Shown here: positions 237 through 58,518 of the stretch, one piece after another
Layout of the letters: the number at the start of each line of letters is the position of its first letter
Numbering within the stretch: position 1 is the first letter of the stretch
Assembly (NCBI GenBank): GCA_902532565.1
Contig: CACAIR010000003.1
Coordinates: 1 to 64,000 of the forward strand
Source: an uncultured Pelagibacteraceae bacterium
GTDB taxonomy: Bacteria; Pseudomonadota; Alphaproteobacteria; Pelagibacterales; Pelagibacteraceae
Length of the DNA: 64,000 bases
Reading direction: 5' to 3'
Notes under the pieces: generated by a model
Seen by the model: the letters and a program-made list of their open reading frames with translations, nothing else
Told to the model about the DNA's origin: nothing
Databases searched by the model: none
Translations under genes and position numbers: made by a program

Positions 237-803
237 ATGCTTTATCAATTTTTATTAAATTTTATTGAGAGTTTTAGTTTTTTGAATGTATTTAAATATT
301 TAACTTTCAGGACAGGTTTATCTTTTTTTACTTCATTAATTATAGTTCTAATCATTGGAGGTCCATTTATAAAATTTTTTTCAAATCAAAAAATATTAAA
401 TCCTATTCGAAATGATGGACCAGAAGATCATATAGTTAAAAAAATTGGCACACCAACAATGGGAGGGGTAATAATTTTATTAGGATTGTTGATCTCAGTA
501 ATTTTTTGGGCAGACCTATCAAATATTAATATTTTATTTTGTATTTATATTGCCATCTCTTTTGGACTTCTTGGAGCTTATGATGATTTTAAAAAGATTA
601 AATACAGTAATTCCTCAGGAATTTCTTTTAAATCTAAATTAATTTCACAAATAATTTTGGCTATTGTAGGTGTTGGATTTTTTGTTTATCTAAACGATTA
701 TCAAGATTTAAATAATTTATATTTTCCATTTTTTAAATTGTTAGATAAATTTTTATTCTTAATTTTGATTGAATTTAATATTATTTTTCTATCTGAAAAA
801 TAA
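237..803 (+). pseudogene. mraY: MraY, N-terminal fragment fused to antisense murE sequence
   Basis: MraY (phospho-MurNAc-pentapeptide translocase) makes lipid I at the inner membrane. The first ~167 residues are convincing: hydrophobic segments, 'TPTMGG' at about 72-77 and 'GAYDDFKK' at about 113-120, the family's Mg2+/substrate loop. Full-length MraY is about 360 residues; this frame stops at 188. The last ~20 codons (after 'YFPFFK') are simply the antisense of the murE 3' end, so mraY homology stops near base 735-740. The remaining transmembrane helices and C-terminal catalytic Asp/His residues are absent. Because MraY is essential, a real broken copy would be surprising; an assembly or amplification chimera is more likely than a natural pseudogene. 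Confidence 0.8.
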
Positions 804-2200
804 ATTTTTTTATTTCTAATATCTTGCGTTTTCTCATGTCCTTTTCCGGCAACTAACAAGATATCTCCAGAATTTAAATTATTTATAGCCTCAAATATTG
901 CTTTAGCCCTACTAGGAATTTCTTTAAATTTTATTTTAATACCTTTTTTAATATGAGTTCTTATTTTTTCAGGATTTTCAAATCTTGGATTATCATTTGT
1001 CAAAAAAATATAGTCTGAATTTTCACTAGCAATTTGGCCCATTTTTGATCTTTTATTTTGATCCCTATTTCCCCCGCATCCAAATAAAACTGTTATCTTT
1101 TTATTAGGAAATTGTTCTCTTAGGTTTAAAAGACATGTTTTCAGCGCATCAGGTGTATGAGCATAATCTAAAATTACTTTTGATCGATTTTTAATTTTAC
1201 CAATTTTTTCAAATCTGCCTTCAACCGGTTTCAATTGTTTAATTACTTCTAAGATTTTATCTAAATTTATATCACTATTTTTTGCAGCGATAATAGACAT
1301 TAATAGATTCTTTAATTGAATTTTTCCGATTAAATTAATTTTAATATTCTTTATTAAATTATTATGTTTAATTTTAAGCAATTGAGTTTCTCCTGAGAAA
1401 CAATGTGATATAATTTCAAATTTATTTTTTTTATCAGCAATTGTTTGCAAATTTAATTTTTTATTTTTTGCAATTTTTTTTAAATTTTTAAATTCAGCGA
1501 TAGTTTCATCTGTTATTATATTTCCTTTTTTTTTTATTAACGACTTAAATAAATAAAGTTTTGATTTTAAATAATCTTTTAAACTTTTATGATAATCAAG
1601 ATGATCTTGAGATAAATTTGTAAATATGGCTGTATCAAAATTTAATCCATCTAATCTATTTTGCTTAAGGCCGTGACTAGAAGCTTCCATAATAACATTT
1701 TCAACTTTTTGATTTTTAAGAATTGTTAATATTTTTCCAAGTTTGATTGGATCTACGGTAGTATTATTTAAATTTAAATTAAATTTTTTTGATTTAACCC
1801 CTAGAGTTCCGATAGATGCAACTTTTTTTTTGTTTAATCTTAATATTTGATAATAAAATTCTGCAACTGATGATTTTCCGTTTGTTCCGGTAACGGCAAT
1901 TAAATTTTTTGGTTTTTGCCTATAAATTTTAAAGGAGATTTCAGATAATAATTTTCTGATATTTTTTGTACGAATATACAAAACTCCTTTATAGTATTTT
2001 TTAATTTTTTTTTCTGTTACAATAATTTTTGAACCTTTTTTAATTGCAATTGAAATAAATTCGTTTCCATCTTTATAATTCCCTTTAATTGCAAAAAAAA
2101 TATGATCTTTTTTTATATTTTTAGTATCAAAAGAGATTCCTGAAAAAAATTTGTTTTTATAATTATTGTTTATATCTAAAAAATAATTTCCAAGTAACAT
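701..2200 (-). CDS. murE: UDP-N-acetylmuramoyl-tripeptide synthetase (meso-DAP adding)
   Basis: Adds the third stem-peptide residue to UDP-MurNAc-L-Ala-D-Glu in the cytoplasm. Visible are the Mur-ligase P-loop 'TGTNGKSS' (about 104-111), 'MEASSHGL' (171-178), 'YAHTPDAL' (346-353) and 'DNPR' (403-406), the motif linked to meso-diaminopimelate selection. At 499 residues the length is normal. The last dozen or so residues ('NGKYKLFKS') are antisense to mraY and probably not native, because the 3' end lies on the suspected chimeric junction. It follows ftsI with a 2-bp gap, so it belongs to the mraZ-ftsZ-rsmH-ftsL-ftsI operon. Confidence 0.95.
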   Translation of the reverse strand: MLLGNYFLDINNNYKNKFFSGISFDTKNIKKDHIFFAIKGNYKDGNEFISIAIKKGSKIIVTEKKIKKYYKGVLYIRTKNIRKLLSEISFKIYRQKPKNLIAVTGTNGKSSVAEFYYQILRLNKKKVASIGTLGVKSKKFNLNLNNTTVDPIKLGKILTILKNQKVENVIMEASSHGLKQNRLDGLNFDTAIFTNLSQDHLDYHKSLKDYLKSKLYLFKSLIKKKGNIITDETIAEFKNLKKIAKNKKLNLQTIADKKNKFEIISHCFSGETQLLKIKHNNLIKNIKINLIGKIQLKNLLMSIIAAKNSDINLDKILEVIKQLKPVEGRFEKIGKIKNRSKVILDYAHTPDALKTCLLNLREQFPNKKITVLFGCGGNRDQNKRSKMGQIASENSDYIFLTNDNPRFENPEKIRTHIKKGIKIKFKEIPSRAKAIFEAINNLNSGDILLVAGKGHEKTQDIRNKKIYFSDRKIILNSIKIKNKNLSNNLKNGKYKLFKS

Positions 2201-2202
2201 GC

Positions 2203-3885
2203 TTAGTTAAACTGTATATATTTTGTGGCTAAAATGGGCCCAATTTTTTCAATTATTTGACCAGCAACTTCGACTGAAGTCCATCCAGCTGTGTTGAATG
2301 GTGTACCTTTATACTTTGTACCTGAACCATCTCTATAATGATATACATACTCACTATTAGTTTTAGGCTCATCTAACATTATAATTAATGTGTATTTTGG
2401 ATTAGATGTTGGAAATACTGAAGCAAATGTATTAACTTTATTTTTTGAATATCCTCCGTCGACACTTTTTTGTGCAGTTCCAGTTTTACCACCAACATCA
2501 TATCCTTCAACATTTGCCAATGAAGCTGTCCCTTCTTTTGTTGTAACAATTTTTCTTAAAATCGGATTAATTTTTTTTGAAACGTCGTTATTAAGTATTT
2601 TTCTATTTGTTTTATAATCATTTTTCTTAATAAGAGTTGGATTAATTCCATAACCTCCATTTACTATTATTGAGTAAGCATTTGCTAATTGAAGCATTGT
2701 AGTTGTAATACCGTGACCATAAGAAGTAGTCGCAAGTTTACATTTTCCCCAATTGAAAGGTATTGGAGTGCCAATTTCTTCAATATCAAACACTAAAGGA
2801 TTAATTAAATTTAGATCATTCATAAATTTCTTAAATTTTTCAATACCTAAAGATTGACCAATTCTAACTGATCCAATATTTCCTGAACGAATTAATATTT
2901 GTTCAGCAGTTAAATTTGATGGAATTTTATCATCATATTCGTTTATAGTATTTTTTCCACATTCTAATTTTTTTTCTAAATCATTAAATTCTGTGTCTGG
3001 CTGAATGATTCCTTCATGAAAACCTGCCGCTAGAGTAAAAGTTTTAAATACAGATCCAAACTCATAAACACCTTTTGTAACTCTATTAATGTAATTAACA
3101 TCTGTAATACTAGATCTCAAATTAGGGTCAAAATCAGGAATTGAAACTAAAGATAAAATTTCTCCATTATAAACGTCCATCAAAATTGCTGCACTACCTT
3201 TTGCCTTAAAAATTTCATTGTATTTGATCAATTCTTCTCTAATTAGAAATTGAATATCTTTATCTACAGTCAATTTAATTTTATCTTTATTTTTTTTCAA
3301 TTTATCATCCAATGATTTCTCTAATCCAGAAATACCTCGATTATCACTATCTATTTGACCAATAATATGACTGAACAAATTTTTTTGAGGATAAATTCTT
3401 ATAAGTTTTTCCTCAGGTTTTATTGATTTGTCACCTAACATCATTATTTTTTCATAATTTTCTTCAGAGATTTTTTTTTCAAACCAAAAAAACTTATTTT
3501 TTTTAAATTTAGATAATATTGATTGATAGTCTTTGTTTGGAAAAATATAACGTAAATTAAGTAATAATTTTTTTTGATCAATTACTTCAATTGGATTAAT
3601 ACCGATATCAATTGAGCTTACTGTTTTTGCTAAAAAATTTCCATTTCTATCAACAATATCTGCTCGTTTAAGTTTGTTATCAACATTTATTTGATTGTTG
3701 ATTGGATTTTTCAAATTTCTTGAGCCAAGATGAATTAAATGAATTGTATAAATTAACGAGATTATAAAAAAAACGAAGAATATAAATGCGACCCTGCTAA
3801 ACTTTGTTTGAATATTATTATTTTTTTTATCATATTGAAATTCTTTATTGTTCTCATAAAAAAAAAATCTTTCTTTATTACTCAT
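2203..3885 (-). CDS. ftsI: Peptidoglycan D,D-transpeptidase FtsI (PBP3)
   Basis: Septal class B penicillin-binding protein that cross-links peptidoglycan with FtsW at the division site. One N-terminal transmembrane segment (about 31-50) follows a short cytoplasmic tail. The transpeptidase triad is complete: 'SVFK' (278-281, nucleophile Ser), 'SGN' (334-336) and 'KTGT' (467-470). The 560-residue length suits the family. The start ATG overlaps the end of the ftsL-like gene by one base, indicating translational coupling, and murE follows after 2 bp. Confidence 0.95.
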   Translation of the reverse strand: MSNKERFFFYENNKEFQYDKKNNNIQTKFSRVAFIFFVFFIISLIYTIHLIHLGSRNLKNPINNQINVDNKLKRADIVDRNGNFLAKTVSSIDIGINPIEVIDQKKLLLNLRYIFPNKDYQSILSKFKKNKFFWFEKKISEENYEKIMMLGDKSIKPEEKLIRIYPQKNLFSHIIGQIDSDNRGISGLEKSLDDKLKKNKDKIKLTVDKDIQFLIREELIKYNEIFKAKGSAAILMDVYNGEILSLVSIPDFDPNLRSSITDVNYINRVTKGVYEFGSVFKTFTLAAGFHEGIIQPDTEFNDLEKKLECGKNTINEYDDKIPSNLTAEQILIRSGNIGSVRIGQSLGIEKFKKFMNDLNLINPLVFDIEEIGTPIPFNWGKCKLATTSYGHGITTTMLQLANAYSIIVNGGYGINPTLIKKNDYKTNRKILNNDVSKKINPILRKIVTTKEGTASLANVEGYDVGGKTGTAQKSVDGGYSKNKVNTFASVFPTSNPKYTLIIMLDEPKTNSEYVYHYRDGSGTKYKGTPFNTAGWTSVEVAGQIIEKIGPILATKYIQFN

Positions 3886-4190
3886 TAATTTCCAGAAATT
3901 TTCAAATCATTTATAACTATTTGATCACCTAAAATTTTAAAAGTTTTCAAATCTTTCAATGATTTTTTTACCAATAAATTTTCAAAATATAATTTTTGAT
4001 ACTCTAGTAATTTTTCTGAGGAACTTAAGTAATGAAATTCTAATTGTGAGTCTTTAAATCTTTCATCCAAAAATAAAATATTTTCTTTTATTGAATAAAT
4101 TTGCTCATCTAGATTTTTAGTAGAATTTTTTATTAAAGATGTGCAAACAATTAAAGATAATATTAATAAAAAAATAAATGATTTGATCAT
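3885..4190 (-). CDS. ftsL: FtsL-like division protein
   Basis: A 101-residue protein with an N-terminal hydrophobic segment (about 2-20) and then a Glu/Lys/Leu-rich stretch that looks coiled-coil. FtsL proteins are short bitopic membrane proteins that help recruit and activate FtsWI; their sequence is poorly conserved. The call rests on size, topology and position between rsmH and ftsI, where ftsL sits in most dcw clusters. It overlaps rsmH by 4 bp (ATGA-type overlap) and ftsI by 1 bp. Sequence alone would not prove the identity. Confidence 0.7.
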
Positions 4191-5197
4191 AATTTTGAGC
4201 CTAATTTTTCAATTTCTAACAAGTAGGAAAATTTCTCTATTATATCAGTTTTTATTTCATGGGAGTCTGTTGTTTTTATTAAATATCTTAATTTAGCTGA
4301 TCTTGATGGAGGGTTTTCTTTAATTTCTTTTCCAGATGGAATAATTGGTTTTTTTTGAGGCATTAGGAACATTAATTCATTTTGTTCTATTTTAGGCTCA
4401 TATCTTGAAACACTTTTATTTTCAGACAAATTTTTAAAGAAATATTTAACTATTTTATCTTCTAAAGAATGGAAAGTTACTACAGCTATAACGCCATTTT
4501 TTTTTAGAACTTTTGTAGAATTTATTAAACCATATATAAGTTCACTAATTTCTTTGTTAACAAATATTCTTAGAGCTTGAAAAGTTTTTGTAGCACTATG
4601 TGTTTTGTAATTTTTTTTTCTTTTTGATCTATCAATTATATAGACAAGATCAGGTGTATTTATCTTTTTCTTTTGTCTAAATTTTATAATATTTTTTGCA
4701 ATTATTCTTGCGTCCCTTTCATCACCAAAATATTTTAAAATTTTTTCCAATTCATGTTTTTCTAATTTATTTATAACTTCACTAGCAGAAAAATCATTAA
4801 GTCCCATCATCATATTAAGTTTTCCCGGTGAATTAAAAGATAAACCTTTGTTCGGATCTTTAATTTGAACGAAGGAATAACCTAGATCAAATACAATCCC
4901 TTTTATATTTTCATTTTTTAATTTTAAATTACGTAATTTACTAAATATTAAATTTTTAAAATGTAACCTATTTGGAAATTGTTTTTCTATATCGCTAGCA
5001 TTTTTTTTACTTGCTATATCTCTATCAAACGCAATAACTTTTGTATTATTATAATTTAAAATTTCTTTTGTGTAACCACCTTGTCCAAATGTGCAATCAA
5101 TAAATGTGCCACCATGTTGAGGGGTAATAACGCTAATAATTTCTTTTAGCAGTACTGGATAGTGCTTTATTTCATCCGTTACTATGGTGGCTTCCAT
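4187..5197 (-). CDS. rsmH: 16S rRNA (cytosine(1402)-N4)-methyltransferase RsmH
   Basis: SAM-dependent methyltransferase that modifies C1402 in the decoding centre of 16S rRNA. The SAM-binding loop '[14 protein letters not shown]' lies near residue 34, followed by '[10 protein letters not shown]' and a C-terminal '[13 protein letters not shown]' block typical of the MraW/RsmH family. The 336-residue length is normal. It lies 18 bp downstream of ftsZ rather than next to mraZ, which is unusual for a dcw cluster. Confidence 0.95.
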
Positions 5198-5215
5198 TTA
5201 TTTTTTTGAAGACCA

Positions 5216-6697
5216 TTAATTCTTTTGTCTTCTTAAAAATGCTGGTATTTCTAAATCATCTTCTTGGTCATCTTTGTGATCAGAAGACAGTAATTCATCA
5301 GAATTTGAATTCTCGCTATCATCATTAAACAAATCAGGTGCATTTGGCTCTACCCCAAATTCACTTAAATCATTTTTTACTTCTTGCTCTATATTCAAGT
5401 TTTCCTCTTGTATAGCTTCTTGTGTGAAAGAAATTTCATCTTCAGTTGATAAATTTTCTTCAATATTCTCTGCATCTTGATTCTTGAGTAGTTCTTGGTG
5501 ATATTGATCATTAACATTATTAATATCTTCTTTAGCAGAAGTTTGGCTAAACATCTCAGAAGTAATTTCATTTTCGACTTTTAGCGCATTTGCACCATGA
5601 GAAACCGGATTTGAATTATTACTTGAAAAGTTAAATGACGGAGTTGGTCCAAGATTTGAAAAATCAGAATATCCTGTATTTCTATTCTGAATTCTATGTA
5701 CCATATTAATCACCGATTTTCTCTCAGGTTGTAGACCATCTAAAGATGTTGCTACAATTGAAACTCTGATTTTACCAGCAAGAGCCTCGTCAGTTATAGC
5801 ACCTATGATAACTTCTGCTTCTGCCTCTACCTCTGATCTAATTTTGTTTACCACTTCATCAACTTCAAAAAGTTTAAGATCTTTCCCTCCGGTAATATTA
5901 ACTAATAAACCTTTGGCTCCATTTAAAGTATAGTCATCAATTAAAGGATTGCTTATAGCCATTTCTGTAGCTTTCATAGCTCTACCTTCTCCCTCTGCTT
6001 CACCAGTTCCCATCATAGCTTTACCCATTGAGGCCATAACAGTTTCAACATCAGCAAAATCAAGATTAATTATACCCGGTCTAACCATAAGGTCAGTAAC
6101 ACTCTGCACTCCATGCATTAATACATTATTTGAAAGATTAAAAGACTCTTCAAAAGTAGTTTGTTCATTAGCTATTTTGAACAAATTTTGATTTGGTATC
6201 ACTATGATTGTATCAACATGTTTTCTTAGTTCTTCAAGTCCAATTTGTGCTCTTTTCATTCTTGAGGGACCTTCATATAAAAAAGGAAGTGTAACTACTC
6301 CAACAGTAAGAATATTCAATTCTTTTGCAGCTCTAGCTATTACATGTGCTGCACCTGTCCCGGTTCCACCACCCATTCCTGCTGCAATAAAAACCATATT
6401 TGCACCCTGTAAAACATTAACAATATCGTTTAATGACTCATCGGCAGCAGCTTGACCAATATCAAGTTTAGCACCAGCACCTAATCCTTTTGTTAAATTT
6501 AAACCAATTTGAATTTTAGATTTTGCTTTGCTATGTTTCAAATCTTGTGCATCAGTATTTACAGCTATAAATTCTACACCTTGCATTCCATTATCTATCA
6601 TTTCATTAATTGCATTTCCGCCTGCACCTCCAACTCCTAGAACTAGTAGTCTTGGTTGCAGTTCTTTTATCTCTGGTGTTCTTATGTTAATTGTCAT
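5216..6697 (-). CDS. ftsZ: Cell division GTPase FtsZ
   Basis: Tubulin-like GTPase that forms the division ring. Present are the N-terminal Gly-rich nucleotide loop '[10 protein letters not shown]' (about 21-30), the tubulin signature 'GGGTGTGA' (109-116) and the T7-loop region. After the folded core (about 1-320) there is a long acidic, Asn/Gln/Glu-rich linker of about 150 residues, ending in the conserved C-terminal peptide '[10 protein letters not shown]' that binds FtsA and other partners. The long linker is common in Alphaproteobacteria. It lies 14 bp after mraZ, directly under the MraZ-controlled promoter; in most dcw clusters ftsZ is the last gene, not the second. Confidence 0.97.
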
Positions 6698-6711
6698 TTT
6701 ATTATCCCCCG

Positions 6712-7167
6712 TTATTTATTAAGTTGAAGCTCCCATTTAAGGCTTGCACGATTTAAATTTGCTTTTTTTCTTGCATTTACCTTAAATTTTTCAAATATTG
6801 TTGGTTCCCAAATTTGGAATATTTTTCCTTGCCCAACAAACATCATGCTCTTCTTAATTTTTGCATGTTTTAATAATTTTGGTGTAAGTGAAATCCTTCC
6901 CTCACTATCAAATTGTAAATTAATACTTTCAGACAGTATTGATGTTGCAAAAAAATCTCTTTTCTCCTCAAAAGGATTGAGGGAGTCAATTGTATTTGAA
7001 ATTCTTTCGATTCTGTCTTGAGGCCATGCTTCTATTGATTGATTATTAAAGGATGGATAACATATTACTCCATTATATCCTAAATTAGATAAATAAGATC
7101 TAAAACTTGCAGGCACCGACACCCTTCCTTTTTTGTCCAATTTGTTTTCGTAGGTTGATAAAAACAT
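6712..7167 (-). CDS. mraZ: Transcriptional regulator MraZ
   Basis: First gene of the division operon. MraZ is a ring-forming DNA-binding protein of two AbrB-like (SpoVT/AbrB) repeats. The first begins '[18 protein letters not shown]' and the second contains '[13 protein letters not shown]'. The 151-residue length matches the family. MraZ of other bacteria represses its own operon by binding TGGGN repeats 10 bp apart; exactly such repeats occur just upstream (7197-7221). Autoregulation of the mraZ-ftsZ-rsmH-ftsL-ftsI-murE operon is therefore likely. Confidence 0.95.
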
Positions 7168-9362: not shown

Positions 9363-9376
9363 AATAATAGTCAATA

Positions 9377-9977
9377 ATGTTTTTAAAAAAAAAAATTATT
9401 GTAATTTCACTAATATTTTTAAATTTAATAGGAACTACTAGTTTAAAAGCTATTGAACCAGATGTATTTGTTCAATCAACAGTAAATAGAGCCTCAAAAC
9501 TTCTGTCTGAAAATATAACAAGAGAAGAAAAAATAGAGAAATTAAAACTAATTGCTAAAGATACGGTTGATATTCAAGGTATCGGGCTTTATACACTTGG
9601 TTCAGTTAGAAAAACTTTAAATGATGATGAAAAATCAATTTATTCACAAAGATTTGAACAATATTTTTTAAAAAGTTTTTCAAGTAGATTAGCAGAATAT
9701 ACAAATCCTGAAATTGACGTTTTTTGCAAAAGAAGTATTAAATAAAAATTACACTATTGTAAATAGTATTCTTAAAGCTACAAATGATCGACCAGAAATA
9801 AAAATTGATTGGAGAATTTATACTAAAGATCCAGACCAACCATTAATTAGAGATTTAATTATTGAAGGTTTAAGTTTAGCAAGAACTCAAAAAGAAGAAT
9901 TTGCATCAGTTTTAAATAGTAATGATGGTGACATTAGGGCCCTTTTTAAAATTTTAGAAGAATTCTCGAATAAATAA
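9377..9977 (+). pseudogene. mlaC: MlaC (Ttg2D) phospholipid-binding protein, frameshifted
   Basis: Periplasmic carrier that moves phospholipids between MlaA and the inner-membrane MlaFEDB complex. The first frame (9377-9745) gives a signal-peptide-like start and the N-terminal half, ending 'YTNPEIDVF'. The second frame (from about 9717 to 9977) continues with 'AKEVLNKNYTIVNSILKATN' and the normal C-terminal end. Skipping one T in the T6 run at 9720-9725 restores a continuous frame of about 199 residues, the usual MlaC size. The extra T may be a sequencing error or a recent mutation; both halves look well conserved, which favours error. The track's second ORF starts at a TTG that is not a real start. 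Confidence 0.88.
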
Positions 9978-9993
9978 TTTTTTAAGTGAAGAT

Positions 9994-10070
9994 TGGTGGG
10001 CCCGCCAGGACTCGAACCTGGGACCAATACATTATGAGTGTACTGCTCTAACCAACTGAGCTACAGGCCC
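9994..10070 (-). tRNA. tRNA with CAT anticodon, probable tRNA-Ile2 (lysidine-modified)
   Basis: A complete cloverleaf with encoded CCA: acceptor GGGCCTG/CGGGCCC, D-arm GCTC..GAGC, anticodon stem GTACA/TGTAT, loop CTCATAA, and T-arm with TTCGAGT. The anticodon is CAT. The pairs C4-G69, C5-G68 and the G27-U43 wobble pair are the determinants described for TilS recognition of E. coli tRNA-Ile2, whereas elongator Met differs there. I therefore prefer Ile2, reading AUA, over elongator Met. It marks the left end of the glycan island. Confidence 0.9.
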
Positions 10071-57382: not shown

Positions 57383-57435
57383 GAATCCAAATTTTTCAAT
57401 CTCAGGTTGACCGCAAAATCTATTTAGAGTCTAAT
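57383..57435 (+). promoter_or_regulatory. ccrM promoter with two GANTC methylation sites
   Basis: TTGACC (57407-57412), exactly 17 nt, then TCTAAT (57430-57435): a strong sigma-70 promoter 12 bp before the ccrM ATG. GAGTC (57427-57431) overlaps the first two bases of the -10, and GAATC (57383-57387) lies upstream of the -35. Both are GANTC, the CcrM recognition sequence. The expected leader is only about 5 nt. Confidence 0.75.
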
Positions 57436-57447
57436 TAATCTTTACAA

Positions 57448-58518
57448 ATGAAAAATGATTTCAAAAATAAAATAATAAATGGAGATAGTCTCGAGGAATT
57501 AAAAAAAATTCCACGTGAAACTTTTAATTTAATTTTTGCTGATCCTCCTTACAACTTACAATTAAAAAGCGAATTAACTAGACCCGATAGATCAAAGGTT
57601 AGTGCGGTAAATGATAAATGGGATCAATTTGAAAATTTTAAAAAATATGATGATTTCACTTATGAATGGCTTAGTGAATGTAAAAGAATTTTAAAAAAAG
57701 ATGGAGCTATTTGGGTTATAGGAAGTTACCATAATATTTTTAGAGTTGGCACAGCAATCCAAAATTTAGGTTTCTGGATTTTAAACGATGTCATTTGGAA
57801 TAAAAACAATCCTATGCCAAACTTTAGAGGGACACGTTTTACTAACGCTCATGAAACTTTAATATGGGCTTCTAAAAGTGAAAAATCAAAATACACATTC
57901 AATTATCAATCTTTAAAATGTTTAAATGATGATTTGCAAATGAGATCTAATTGGGATCTTCCAATATGCAATGGTTCGGAAAGACTTAAAAAGGATGGAA
58001 AAAAAATTCACTCTACACAAAAACCAGAAGCATTATTACATAGAATTTTACTAGCTACATCTAATAAAAATGACCTAATACTTGATCCTTTTTTAGGATC
58101 AGGAACAACAGCTACAGTAGCAAAAAAATTAGGAAGAAATTATTTTGGAATAGAGAAAGAAAAAAATTATTTTAAAGCTGCTGAGCAACGCATAAAGGCC
58201 ACAAAGCCTATTGAAGATGATTTATTAGATACGCTTAAAAATAATAGATCAAAACCAAGAATTCCTTTTGGTTCATTAGTAGAGCTTGGAATAATTAAAC
58301 CTGGAACTAATATTTTTGATAATAAAAAAAAAATAACAGCCAGAATTATGGCTGATGGCAGTATAAAAAATAATCAAGCAGAGGGTTCTATACACAAAGT
58401 TGCAGCTACTATTTTAGGAGCTGAAAGTTGCAATGGGTGGACTTTTTGGCACTGTGATATAAATGGACAAACTTATCCTATTGATTATCTAAGACAAAGA
58501 TTAATTTCTAAAAATTAA
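57448..58518 (+). CDS. ccrM: CcrM-type DNA adenine methyltransferase (GANTC)
   Basis: Beta-class N6-adenine methyltransferase. Catalytic 'DPPYNL' comes first (about 31-36), then 'LDPFLGSGTT' for SAM. The C-terminal ~90 residues ('PFGSLVELGIIKPGT', 'ARIMADGSIKN', 'NGWTFWH') are the extra domain of CcrM enzymes that recognises GANTC. 356 residues equals the CcrM size. In other Alphaproteobacteria it maintains cell-cycle methylation. No restriction partner is adjacent, consistent with an orphan regulatory methylase. Confidence 0.95.
   Translation: MKNDFKNKIINGDSLEELKKIPRETFNLIFADPPYNLQLKSELTRPDRSKVSAVNDKWDQFENFKKYDDFTYEWLSECKRILKKDGAIWVIGSYHNIFRVGTAIQNLGFWILNDVIWNKNNPMPNFRGTRFTNAHETLIWASKSEKSKYTFNYQSLKCLNDDLQMRSNWDLPICNGSERLKKDGKKIHSTQKPEALLHRILLATSNKNDLILDPFLGSGTTATVAKKLGRNYFGIEKEKNYFKAAEQRIKATKPIEDDLLDTLKNNRSKPRIPFGSLVELGIIKPGTNIFDNKKKITARIMADGSIKNNQAEGSIHKVAATILGAESCNGWTFWHCDINGQTYPIDYLRQRLISKN

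Follow-up and report, generated by a model that had tools for sequence, protein, structure and literature searches.

What does the left end of this SAR11 contig represent? The window (the whole 64,000-nucleotide stretch analyzed, G000:C3:1-64000) opens with part of a cell-wall gene cluster in which a truncated mraY runs head-on into murE. Either a chromosome carries its genes in this way, or the arrangement was made after the DNA left the cell. We examined the junction itself, the same locus in related genomes, and the draft assembly from which the contig comes.

Structure of the junction

At the left end of the window, mraY homology on the forward strand meets murE homology on the reverse strand, and this inverted join is present in the sequence as given (Table 1). 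Against most relatives, tblastn ends the mraY match at residue 167 (base 737) and the murE match at residue 490 (base 731), and the blastn match of the left arm stops in most cases at base 737. Not one of the 80 mraY relatives aligned past residue 167. Consistent with truncation, the mraY fragment scores 98.9 bits against TIGR00445, under the 192-bit cut-off. Both reading frames run beyond their homology into false tails, and the apparent stop of the murE frame at 701-703 sits within antisense mraY.

Table 1. Features at the left end of the window.
Feature	Position	Strand	Basis and remarks
murF 3' end, C-terminal ~77 codons	1-236 (coding 3-236)	+	Part of the flipped block; tblastn against relatives
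mraY codons 1-167, cut off by the junction	237-737	+	Homology ends at 737; relatives have ~361 codons
False tail of the murE frame (antisense mraY)	701-730	-	Alignment to relatives
TTTTAAA, 7-base match common to both arms	731-737		Alignment to 12 mraY and 11 murE-murF sequences of relatives
MurE portion, 490 codons, of a fused murE-murF gene, cut off by the junction	731-2200	-	Homology, NCBIfam
False tail of the mraY frame (antisense murE)	738-803	+	Alignment to relatives
Remaining division and cell-wall cluster: ftsI, ftsL, rsmH, ftsZ, mraZ	2203-7167	-	Order and direction identical in relatives; NCBIfam names

The short match at the junction probably guided the join, because random inverted joins at this locus reach seven or more shared bases with a probability of only about 0.002. 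Microhomology alone cannot tell artefact from biology: a real microhomology-driven inversion would show the same match. The junction does not fold into a hairpin any better than shuffled sequences do (z 0.67), and a search for tandem repeats found none.

The locus in related genomes

Our comparison set consists of other species, the nearest relative being about 85% identical in nucleotides on the left arm. In twelve genome stretches murE, murF and mraY are co-directional. This normal order, together with a full-length mraY, was found in 75 of 80 related loci from GTDB genomes, the other five being cut by contig ends. The junction seen in the window occurs in none of the 80. Its 40-mer was not found outside the window's own loci, and no relative aligns across it. 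Placed on relatives L037 and L052, the two break points fall within a single co-directional operon, with 1,872 bp between them. As a separate observation, an apparent frameshift near codon 68 interrupts mraY in the one-contig relative G012 (L043, about 9371-9577).

The relatives also show what murE should look like. In all 74 assessable relatives, murE runs in frame into murF as one gene of 946-948 codons (~947); 77 related loci had a murE match, and the gene start was present in 74 of them. After murE codon 490 these genes continue with an in-frame linker and then the MurF domain, and the break in the window falls at this MurE-MurF linker. Because the relatives continue in frame past codon 490 into murF, the fused murE-murF gene of the window is truncated as well as mraY, and the end of murE at the junction is not natural. 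The top-scoring NCBIfam model for the window murE protein is NF008896 (bifunctional MurE/MurF), which matches over the MurE half only and does not reach its cut-off.

These results refine an earlier note on this DNA, made from the sequence alone. Its premise that the three genes are normally co-directional is borne out by the comparison with related SAR11 clusters that it had proposed, and its junction near 735-740 is placed by homology at 731-737. The note had described mraY as head-on to the 3' end of murE. The inverted join and the truncated mraY hold, but the murE end is not a natural 3' end, since relatives run on into murF. It had further pictured a flipped murF-mraY' block with a break inside mraY. 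That break lies at codon 167, and a second one, inside the fused murE-murF gene, has to be added.

Beyond the junction, the cluster has an unremarkable layout shared with relatives. Within it, mraZ and rsmH flank ftsZ (window 5216-7167 region), which is found near the cluster start rather than its end; relatives of the genus share this position, as does L046, from another family. A search of a literature library found no paper on dcw order in SAR11. Farther along the window, the gene after an mlaA-like gene (9377-10000) is by its position probably mlaC. Its reading frame seems to shift near 9730: the first frame stops at 9745, and the next stays open to about 9980. Additionally, positions 57383-57451 match the bablM sRNA family of Rfam at 66.5 bits, against a cut-off of 38.

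The draft assembly around the junction

Base 1 of the window is base 1 of contig C3, and the flipped block takes up the first 737 bases of the contig. The SAR11 draft, 66.85% complete, consists of 33 contigs totalling 872,069 bases. The earlier note had suggested looking for a second mraY or the missing mraY 3' half; this draft contains neither. With no mraY 3' half anywhere in it, no reciprocal junction was found in this ~67%-complete assembly. The draft likewise holds no Mur ligase central domain besides that of the window murE. Because it contains neither another mraY match nor another such domain, we conclude that the true continuation of the operon (murF, the rest of mraY, and murD) was left unassembled. 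Taken by itself, the missing second mraY is weak evidence, the draft being two-thirds complete.

Searching the rest of the draft for a copy of the left 800 bases returned short AT-rich matches only, and a search for self-inverted repeats at contig ends gave short, weak matches. Among 53 contig-end stretches of the draft, the window junction was the sole local inverted join; such joins are therefore not widespread in this assembly, a point that weighs somewhat against an amplification origin. Among the contig ends compared with the complete relative G012, the left one of C3 falls at about 182-186 kb and the next on that side, from C10, at about 211 kb. Two other contig ends show gene order jumping to a distant, opposite-strand G012 position: the right end of C4 (L165, 775-2007) and the right end of C10 (L171, 1830-1836). 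Such jumps may reflect either genuine rearrangement or additional chimeras.

Origin of the junction

Four features separate artefact from biology at this locus: the join lies at a contig end, it breaks two genes that should be essential, the draft has no further copies of them, and relatives lack the junction. If murE-murF and mraY had truly been inverted in the chromosome of a living cell, the contig would look identical, since C3 ends inside murF before the two possibilities could be distinguished. However, MurE-MurF and MraY are both expected to be essential, the inversion would disrupt both, and no relative shares the junction; the draft offers no spare copy of either gene, although at about 67% completeness this does not amount to proof. 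We regard such an inversion as very improbable, and the more specific version in which unassembled intact copies rescue a SAR11 cell with mraY and the murE-murF fusion broken as more doubtful again. Foreign or contaminant DNA attached at the contig end could be suspected from the left arm, whose best relative is 84.7% identical in nucleotides, against 80.3% for that of the right arm. Yet mraY is the more conserved gene, both arms are neighboring parts of one operon, and relatives closer to one arm tend to be closer to the other as well (Spearman 0.52 between identities, 77 loci), which fits a single organism. Contamination is the explanation we find hardest to credit.

A pure assembly error, in which graph paths were joined through a short AT-rich match and no chimeric molecule ever existed, would agree with the AT-rich sequence of the match and with the location of the join at the contig end, the part with the least support. 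It would seldom happen, however, that an error of this kind brought together two inverted arms of one operon 1.87 kb apart, and usual assembler k-mers far exceed the seven bases available. An origin in assembly alone is therefore unlikely, though slightly easier to accept than an inversion.

The first 737 bases come from this same cell-wall gene cluster but are attached in reverse, and we conclude that they are almost certainly an amplification artefact and not a chromosomal rearrangement. Specifically, we favor an inverted chimera with an intervening deletion, formed in vitro during multiple displacement amplification (MDA) and kept as the end of C3, at a probability of roughly 0.92. The genome itself probably came from an amplified single cell, as suggested by its incompleteness, its fragmentation, and its relatives, which are nearly all AG-, AH- or SCGC entries, some labelled MAG. 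We infer that amplification, rather than the cell, made the join. While phi29 polymerase was copying the murE-murF-mraY region, the growing 3' end would have been displaced, would have reannealed via TTTTAAA/TTTAAAA to the same-sense displaced strand 1.87 kb away, and would then have been extended in the opposite direction. With the real sequence beyond it (the rest of mraY, and murD) absent from the draft, the chimera would have been the assembler's remaining path.

The earlier suspicion that amplification or assembly had created an artefact at a short AT-rich match gains support from the intact order in relatives, none of which has the junction, and from the lack of a second mraY or an mraY 3' half in the draft. 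The accompanying doubt as to whether the sequence left of about 740 belongs there was justified insofar as it is a flipped artefact join, but its source is not unrelated DNA; it is the same locus, 1.87 kb away.

A second inverted join in the same gene cluster

We screened 110 related loci for reverse-orientation stretches and obtained a single hit, L059, on the SAR11 contig AG-461-A22_NODE_39 (CACKZH010000039.1). Here the normal order murF, mraY, murD is followed, from about 3530-3549, by inverted upstream sequence from the murE/ftsI side, which makes up the last ~920 bases of the contig (3530-4450). The two arms share AAAAAAAATATTATTTTTTT (20 bases, AT-rich) and are about 5.0 kb apart when measured in L052. 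L059 resembles the window in having a local inverted join in the same gene cluster, close to the end of a contig, with a short AT-rich match shared by the arms. Unlike the window, its break runs from murD to murE, its spacing is about 5.0 kb, and its match is 20 bases long. Because the break points differ, the L059 join is an independent event of the same kind.

Inverted amplification joins can therefore persist at the contig ends of SAR11 drafts, with two independent cases in one gene cluster. For C3, trustworthiness ends at the junction: we advise trimming or flagging bases 1-737, and the hybrid frames 237-803 and 701-2200 should be kept out of databases, where they would pass for real variants of MraY or MurE.

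Comparison with known amplification chimeras

The finding is an ordinary one: a contig end that carries an inverted amplification chimera, and not a real chromosomal feature. When a single E. coli cell was amplified by MDA, 406 of 475 chimeras (85%) were inverted, and in 337 of those 406 the arms lay <10 kb apart. Complementary junction bases, up to 21, occurred in 93.5% of the close inversions. The commonest chimera was inverted, with an intervening deletion, arms <10 kb apart, and a short match (Lasken & Stockwell 2007, PMC1855051). Unlike those chimeras, the window case is known from an assembled contig rather than from reads, and its single-cell origin is presumed. In other respects it resembles them closely: its second arm is inverted, head-on where relatives are co-directional; the spacing of the arms, 1,872 bp in L037 and L052, is within the <10 kb range; the 7-base TTTTAAA falls within the 2-21 complementary bases of the published junctions; and the intervening sequence has been lost.
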